IMG/VR virus record: IMGVR_UViG_3300047472_000436
Coordinates: 1-37,787 of that record
DNA length: 37,787 nucleotides
DNA from: a virus
Reading direction: 5' to 3' (one strand)
In this document: positions 18,104 to 19,700 of the stretch, in pieces
Layout: each line of letters starts with the position of its first letter
How positions within the stretch are numbered: the stretch's first letter is position 1
Made by a program: the position numbers and the translations under genes
The notes under the pieces: model-generated
Told to the model about the DNA's origin: nothing
Database searches by the model: none
Seen by the model: only the letters and a program-made list of their open reading frames with translations

Positions 18104-18207
18104 TCTGCGGCGCCAATAGCCTAGGATCGGCGTCTGCGCACGAAGACATCGCGAGCGCAGGATTGGTCACGCCAGGAAGCGACAATCGACGCGATGCGAG
18201 ACCTGTT

Positions 18208-19197
18208 CTAATCATACAAAAATTTAAACCATGGAGGCCGACGGAAAATGATGGCGGCGCCGTCCTCAGGCGTGAAGGTGCGTTGCACTTTCGACGATAG
18301 ATAGACAAGTAGCGGAAGAACTCGACGGTACATCAAAAGAACGTTCTTATAACCACCGGGAAACTTCGCACCATATCGATAATCAATCGCACGAGATGGA
18401 TTGGGAAGGAACCCAAGGTCTAAGGGCTCGTTAACTTCGATGCCAACCGCTTTAGCTTGGTTCACAAGGTGTATAAGACTATGCTCAAAATCAGGCTGTA
18501 CTCCTCTTTGAGCGATCAGCGCCTTTAGCATACTTTCTACGGCAAAGTAGATATCCCAAACCGCAGACGAGCAGCGAATTACATCTTGGGTGGATATTTT
18601 TTCAGCTGCCTCACAAATTGAAATTAAAGTAATCGCACAGAAACCTCTGTGTTCATCTGGCGCTGGATCGCCTAGCATTAGGTTTATGTTAATCTTGCGC
18701 AACGTCTCTGTGACTGATTTTAGGTCACAGTCAAGACGAATCGATTGCTTTTGCGATAAGCGTTCTAACGAAGGTGGGGCAACAAGCCATTTTCGAGGCA
18801 TCTCGCTATCGCCAAGTGCCGTATCAAGGGACATTATGAAATGACCGGCGTCCTGATCCCAGACTCCATAACTCGCTGGCACGTTTAAGATGAATGCTAG
18901 TCCATGGATATCGATTAAGCCTTTGAGTGTGACACTCTTCGCGCTCAGTGCCGCTCCGTACTTTTTCTCATACCAGCCCATCACAATCGCGAACAGCACC
19001 GCGAACCAATCCTGAAAATAGGGCTTGTCCGCTGAGCCGTTCTCGACAATAACGAAGTCATCCACAAGAGTTTTTGTTGCCTCCATAGGACGAGATGACA
19101 ACTTCGTCCCCATTGAATTTAGAAACTGGTCGATCTCTGGAAGAAGCTCGCGAATTCGATTGGCGAGTCCTAGATTTGACACCTCAATTTTTCTCAT
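18208..19197 (-). CDS. Leftward cargo (moron) protein, possible HEPN-like C-terminal region
   Basis: The 329-residue protein is coded against the late operon between gpG and the protease, with lower GC and different codon use than its neighbours, a sign of separate acquisition. Residues 1-195 match nothing I know; they include FQDWFAVLFAIVMGWYEKKY, a hydrophobic helix, and ASYGVWDQDAG. Residues about 200-305 recall HEPN helical domains, with SSAVWDIYFAVESMLKALIA followed by FEHSLIHLVNQAK and IDYRYGAKFPGGYKNVLLMY. The usual RxxxxxH motif of HEPN RNases is not evident. The ATG at 19197 is preceded by AAAGG; a TTG one codon earlier is also possible. It should be expressed in the lysogen from its own promoter and may act in phage exclusion, but the function is unproven. 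Confidence 0.75.
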   Translation of the reverse strand: MRKIEVSNLGLANRIRELLPEIDQFLNSMGTKLSSRPMEATKTLVDDFVIVENGSADKPYFQDWFAVLFAIVMGWYEKKYGAALSAKSVTLKGLIDIHGLAFILNVPASYGVWDQDAGHFIMSLDTALGDSEMPRKWLVAPPSLERLSQKQSIRLDCDLKSVTETLRKININLMLGDPAPDEHRGFCAITLISICEAAEKISTQDVIRCSSAVWDIYFAVESMLKALIAQRGVQPDFEHSLIHLVNQAKAVGIEVNEPLDLGFLPNPSRAIDYRYGAKFPGGYKNVLLMYRRVLPLLVYLSSKVQRTFTPEDGAAIIFRRPPWFKFLYD

Positions 19198-19200
19198 CAA

Positions 19201-19700
19201 CAGCGACCTTTCAATAAAAATTCGCTCTTTTCGACGCTAGTCGAGTGAGTGGCAAAGCCGACGCTTTCGTTGACGAAGTCCGCTTCTGGACGAAATCGGA
19301 GAATAGTTGAGAAGGATAGCATTTCGCTGATCCCTAAAAGAGTGAAAATTTCACAACCTTGTGTGCGCCGCTGTAGTCTAATGTCTGCGACGTTGATTGC
19401 GCTTGTCTGTCAGTGCTCAAAGGAGCAGTGAGGTGGAATTAGGAGAATTGATAGGATACAGTGATGCCGTTAGTCTGCTCAGAAACTGCCAAATCGTCTA
19501 GAGGCCCGCCACGCGGCTTTTAAATGCCAACCGGCAAGAATCCTCGTCCGAGGGAGCGACGGGCCGTTAGAGGTGCGTTAGAATGCTTCCAATAAGCAAC
19601 GGTGTTGATAGTTGCCCTGTCACCAGCAGCAAAACAACGGTTTAAACCCCCTGAACCCGTTCACCTGATACGCATTTCCGCCCGGCATCAACATGGCGGT
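19201..19700. other. 500-base gap without a convincing gene
   Basis: This stretch lies between the start of the leftward cargo gene and the protease gene. It must hold the promoter of the cargo gene, but I see no strong -35/-10 pair. A 60-codon frame at 19249-19431 with a GTG start has no protein-like pattern. The right part holds the branched inverted-repeat structure at 19497-19571. In other Mu-like phages gpG and the protease gene are adjacent, so most of this is insert. Confidence 0.6.
19497..19571. ncRNA. Branched inverted-repeat element, possible structured RNA
   Basis: TCTA (19497-19500) and GGCCCG (19503-19508) pair with CGGGCC (19560-19565) and TAGA (19568-19571), separated by a two-base internal loop. 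Inside the closed region are two short hairpins, TGCC-AACC-GGCA (19525-19536) and CCTC-GTCC-GAGG (19542-19553). This gives a multibranch fold of about 75 bases. It may be a small RNA, a processed leader of the head genes, or a remnant of transfer. It does not fit a tRNA. Expression and strand are unknown. Confidence 0.4.

Follow-up and report, generated by a model that had tools for sequence, protein, structure and literature searches.

A leftward low-GC gene in the neck-protease slot of a Mu-like phage encodes a protein with a C-terminal HEPN domain and a candidate role in phage defence

The stretch of DNA analysed here (the window, 37,787 nucleotides) is the whole virus record IMGVR_UViG_3300047472_000436 and represents a Mu-like transposable, temperate phage of bacteria, with genes for transposase A and B, terminase, portal, an F-like protein, a G-like neck protein, an I-like protease and the capsid. 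Between the neck or virion morphogenesis gene (Mu G-like, PF05069; 17567..18103, plus strand) and the Mu-like I protease/scaffold gene (PF10123; 19692..20777, plus strand, likely ATG near 19692) lies one gene in reverse orientation (18208..19197, minus strand). Its reading frame extends from an ATG at 19197 to a stop codon at 18208-18210 and encodes 329 aa, or 330 aa if a TTG one codon upstream is used, and an AAAGG located 8-9 nt 5' of the ATG provides a good ribosome-binding site. An open frame of at least 329 codons arose in none of 2000 first-order Markov shuffles of the slot (mean of the longest frame 121, maximum 273), and the existence of full-length homologues at 20-26% identity establishes that the frame is a protein-coding gene. 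With a GC content of 0.468 and a GC3 of 0.470, compared to 0.585-0.638 and 0.762-0.822 in eight other genes of the phage, the gene is foreign as judged by its GC3. Thus, the leftward low-GC gene that the preliminary description had placed in the head operon is confirmed by its reading frame, the shuffles, the homologues and the composition, and all structural genes tested around it (terminase, portal, F-like, neck, protease and capsid) indeed point rightward.

The left flank of the insert (18104..18207) is phage-like with a GC content of 0.615, whereas the region upstream of the gene (19198..19563) is low in GC (0.48 over 19198-19540). The right limit of the insert is probably marked by a sequence block that is conserved among the phages, CCGTTAG..GCGTTA (19564..19586, plus strand, upstream of the protease gene), which was recognised by eye in comparison with three viral contigs (L012, L014 and L015). 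An own promoter, as presumed previously, was not borne out by the promoter scan: a single weak sigma-70-like site was returned, which overlaps the start codon, and chance would predict more; overall, promoter and terminator counts around the gene were at or near chance in scans that miss other promoter types. A 13-bp palindrome (GTGAAAATTTCAC, 19342-19354) is located approximately 145 bp upstream of the ATG and is possibly an operator, with chance as the other possible explanation. At the left end of the window, an ORF (16-702) matches a periplasmic sugar-binding protein (PF13407), and this end is therefore probably host DNA; the phage itself may start near position 628 (TGTGGGGG, placed by eye), which would make it an inserted prophage.

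To put the locus into context, the slot was compared across 80 viral contigs found via the capsid protein and across named Mu-like phages. The closest contigs with both neighbours recognisable carry no gene in the slot (130 bp in L006, 192 bp in L013 and 118 bp in L015), the empty slot spans about 120-290 bp across several relatives, and among the named phages compared no gene is present there in UMP151, VW-6B and Klebsiella ST405-OXA48phi1.1. Other phages have filled it: a D12-class DNA adenine methyltransferase gene occupies the slot in L012, L014 and L018, AcrF1 together with a winged-HTH gene is found at exactly the same position in JBD30, and LESphi4 and Etesian contain several acr genes there. 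Low-GC accessory anti-CRISPR genes have been described for plasticity region G (PMC4378225). The preliminary description had termed the gene a moron and had suggested inspecting its presence or absence in relatives. This designation now stands, considering that the gene separates two genes which are adjacent in related phages, that its composition deviates, and that the locus is variously empty or occupied by a methyltransferase or by AcrF/Aca genes, the latter in Mu-like phages of P. aeruginosa. The slot is thus a known accessory locus, and the novelty lies in its content here. In other Mu-like relatives, further low-GC genes were observed in or near the slot, namely L011:1562-3580 (minus strand, 672 aa, GC 0.52), L083:3433-4176 (minus strand, 247 aa, GC 0.33) and L066:3822-4226 (plus strand, 134 aa, GC 0.36), which match neither Pfam nor PADLOC models. 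Moreover, the PADLOC phage-defence candidate PDC-S42 is matched by L069:1761-2630 and L073:1727-2638, both located between minor-head and protease matches.

Homologues, Pfam, hhalign and structure matches divide the encoded protein into an N-terminal domain and a C-terminal HEPN-T domain. The latter comprises residues about 174-306 (18280..18678, minus strand), with 174-306 delimited by VIA-align, 198-301 by hhalign and 209-256 by Pfam. The Pfam model PF05168 scores 22.3 bits against a cut-off of 22 over residues 209-256, two relatives reach 24.6 and 26.6 bits, and a genome search with the family profile picks up small HEPN proteins as the next matches, of which those tested are clear PF05168 members. 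Profile-profile comparison by hhalign of the family with the HEPN proteins associated with MNT (97.4%, E 9.5e-12, residues 198-301) placed the Ex3K motif, the histidine and the R-Y pair in register. The AlphaFold model, built from few sequences, is of low confidence (mean pLDDT 52-53), and the Foldseek E-values are not significant; HEPN entries nevertheless rank on top. The four best VIA-align matches to model residues 174-306 (3o10, 1ufb, 2hsb and 1o3u) are all HEPN-T, with Z 10.3-11.5 and an rmsd of 2.4-2.9 Å over 109-124 residues, compared to Z values of up to 9.7 for unrelated helical matches, so that structure comparison alone argues with moderate confidence for a four-helix HEPN fold. 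This fold would be shared with HEPN-T proteins of the AF0298/TT1696/TM0613 type (Z 10.3-11.4 to 2hsb, 1ufb and 1o3u). The HEPN-like C-terminus noticed earlier is hence upheld by the sensitive searches, with sequence profile, profile-profile and structure comparison in agreement.

Seven aligned proteins share the invariant residues E221, K225, H239, R274 and Y275 in the HEPN part. These form an Ex3K motif (E221-K225, 18523..18537, minus strand), a candidate alternative catalytic histidine (H239, 18481..18483, minus strand), which is also invariant in the MNT-associated HEPN proteins, and R274-Y275 (18373..18378, minus strand) at the end of the predicted HEPN helix 3, with no histidine 5-7 residues later. 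The canonical RNase motif Rx4-6H is missing, R274 being followed by YGAKFPGG, and occurs at this place only in the relatives L002 and L108; a strictly canonical HEPN RNase is ruled out by the motif. In AF0298-type HEPN-T proteins and AbiV, the canonical histidine is likewise lost, the arginine is kept and a second conserved histidine lies upstream, which may form an alternative active site (PMC3710099). Based on these residues, the window protein resembles this 'alternative histidine' variant, with Ex3K, a histidine in the insert between helices 2 and 3 and the retained arginine in common. The RNA-targeting proposed before stays uncertain, since Rx4-6H is missing and the alternative-histidine arrangement is the only one present; the domain may thus be one that binds RNA without cleaving it.

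The N-terminal domain (about residues 1-173; 18679..19197, minus strand) was delimited by the alignment and the low-confidence model and contains eight residues that are invariant in the seven aligned proteins (D23, R36, A40, W75, Y76, G81, E132 and R167). No model in Pfam, NCBIfam, PHROGs or PADLOC matched the N-terminal ~175 residues, which are conserved, as is the HEPN part, in every relative. Of the new sensor domain proposed earlier, the novelty is thus supported, while the sensing role follows by inference; we propose a domain of a new type acting as sensor or regulator. HEPN-T proteins of the AF0298/TT1696/TM0613 type have ~120-140 aa and stand alone or are located next to or fused with MNT, in contrast to the fusion with a new N-terminal domain seen here.

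Full-length relatives of the protein are rare, with zero to one new match per sample of 370-400 genomes. A tblastn search of 50,697 phage records returned no relative, and neither did single-protein and alignment scans of the viral contigs, where a match in L090 was a 28-residue chance match. In the genome contigs, the single-protein scan found none and the alignment scan identified four near-identical cassette copies. A match on an Azotobacter plasmid was ruled out (E=3, 26% coverage), searches of the PDB by sequence with the single protein and the profile gave chance matches only, the window protein has no match in PHROGs or NCBIfam, and no PADLOC-DB 2.0 model matches it or its relatives.

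The genomic context of these relatives gives hints to a function. In Pseudosulfitobacter plasmids, a homologue (30 records, 26% identity, 95% coverage) overlaps the end of an MmeI-type IIG restriction-methylation gene by 4 bp, the order being a VirB operon and a VapC gene, the IIG gene and the HEPN-family gene; the IIG enzyme gene with this 4-bp overlap is found at L002:5390-9195. The G574/L108 homologue adjoins a KAP NTPase gene (QatA-like), followed by the PRTase and reverse transcriptase of a retron III-A and an LmuB-like (Lamassu-like) gene, whereas the G1243/L112 homologue lies in reverse orientation, flanked by a copG-like gene and traG, within a trb conjugation operon. The defence-island check that had been suggested thus gave a positive result for one relative, located in a bacterial island with retron III-A, Lamassu-like and KAP genes, and the association with defence is based on this island in one genome and on the restriction-modification overlap in one plasmid family. 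Furthermore, the gene stands alone in an integron cassette on a Thiothrix plasmid and in three gammaproteobacterial genomes, with a 48-bp attC (ATTTAAC...GTTAGCT) after the stop codon; a further copy, in Paraglaciecola, has no attC, and L107 contains a copy that has diverged further but shares the N-terminus. No attC is present in the window slot, and the phage copy is therefore not itself a cassette. In three of the four integron arrays, the family gene is directly followed by a cassette for an unrelated protein that contains a HEPN-like motif, R-N-x3-H (L003:8979-9650, RNRLVH; L086:11016-11792, RNSLAH; L087:1425-2723, RNAIAH; shuffle chances 0.065, 0.019 and 0.072, respectively). These proteins match no Pfam model and no PDB sequence, and the arrangement possibly reflects a pairing of HEPN proteins or arrays that are rich in HEPN.

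Taken together, our somewhat favoured reading is that this moron in the anti-CRISPR slot encodes a stand-alone, infection-triggered growth-arrest HEPN immunity protein, with the defence role deduced from context. The gene has no MNT or other obligatory partner, and its relatives are mobile and defence-associated; that it travels alone in cassettes and in the phage slot makes dependence on a linked partner unlikely. We infer expression in the lysogen, defence activity, a trigger and RNA as the target. A self-contained triggered effector, with an N-terminal sensor or brake and a HEPN dimer as effector, is the most economical reading. In the uninfected lysogen the HEPN protein would be held inactive, and the N-terminal domain would be relieved once a second phage infects, by one of its products or by an event of that infection; the HEPN dimer would then act on RNA via E221/H239/R274 as the alternative-histidine site, for which RNA cleavage is a prediction, and growth would stop before the intruder phage multiplies.

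A precedent for such a working mode is Tha, a 301-aa protein with a C-terminal HEPN encoded in antisense arrangement by an S. aureus prophage, which is an RNase triggered by the tail protein of the infecting phage and requires H270 of its motif R265NSIMH270 (PMC11087260). The window protein is similar in its length of ~300 aa, the prophage-type carrier, the unassigned N-terminus, the C-terminal HEPN and the antisense position within an operon. It differs from Tha in that the ArgX4His catalytic motif has no Rx4-6H counterpart, in that no sequence match is found in the 50,697 phage records, and in that no inhibitor gene was identified in this phage. Tha is thus a model for the working of the window protein and not its family, as the window protein lacks the motif that Tha requires. 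AbiJ-type proteins follow the same principle of a novel N-terminal domain joined to HEPN, and some of them are located near restriction-modification systems (PMC3710099); however, AbiJ keeps Rx4-6H, in contrast to the window protein, whose N-terminus matches no Pfam model.

The main rival is motivated by the slot and not by the relatives: an anti-defence protein could shield the phage from host immunity, e.g., by binding its RNA or by dimerising with a host HEPN effector. The slot is the same as that of AcrF1/AcrF3/AcrE1 and of the D12 methyltransferases, the low GC and the position between G-like neck and I-like protease genes are common to the JBD30 gp35-36 anti-CRISPR locus, and a missing catalytic motif would suit a binding or decoy protein. 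Nevertheless, we regard this explanation as unlikely. The homologues in a bacterial defence island and overlapping a restriction-modification gene are not confined to phages, and relatives are missing from the phage records searched. Furthermore, the acr genes of this slot are small (roughly 54-140 residues), point rightward and precede an HTH regulator gene, whereas the window slot contains neither a small Acr gene nor an Aca-type HTH gene and is occupied by one gene of 329 aa in the opposite orientation.

A HEPN toxin or addiction gene that stabilises its element, restrained either internally by the N-terminal domain or by an antitoxin encoded elsewhere, would fit the carriers (plasmids, a conjugative element, a phage and cassettes), the VapC gene nearby in Pseudosulfitobacter and the closeness of the HEPN part to the HEPN proteins of MNT-HEPN modules. 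Yet neither the window nor the surroundings of any full-length relative revealed an MNT motif in a pattern search, compared to an adjacent one by the same pattern in 10 of 11 small HEPN relatives and, by eye, in the eleventh (L097), and the single-gene cassettes contain no antitoxin, so that we give this explanation an equally small chance. Slightly less probable still is a catalytically inactive HEPN with an RNA-binding or regulatory role for phage or host, as proposed for MtlR, and no part in conflicts. The missing Rx4-6H would agree with it, but the E, K, H and R are invariant across relatives of ~20% identity and may form the possible alternative active site (PMC3710099), and the distribution of the family is mobile and defence-associated.

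In conclusion, the architecture of the protein is new, while the effector domain it uses and the accessory slot its gene occupies were both known before; the immunity function is predicted by context with moderate confidence. On a broader view, which we hold more tentatively, the family may constitute a single-gene anti-phage system not characterised before, which joins a new N-terminal sensor domain to a HEPN effector of the alternative-histidine kind and travels between phages, integrons, plasmids and conjugative elements; the Mu-like slot may be a general arms hotspot for defence and anti-defence. If true, the protein would be a compact candidate for testing whether alternative-histidine (AF0298/AbiV) HEPN domains are active effectors, a possibility raised in 2013 (PMC3710099). 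The anti-CRISPR slot of Mu-like phages would also hold lysogen-protecting cargo, and further genes of this kind could be sought by a simple rule, namely reading the interval from the G-like neck to the I-like protease gene.
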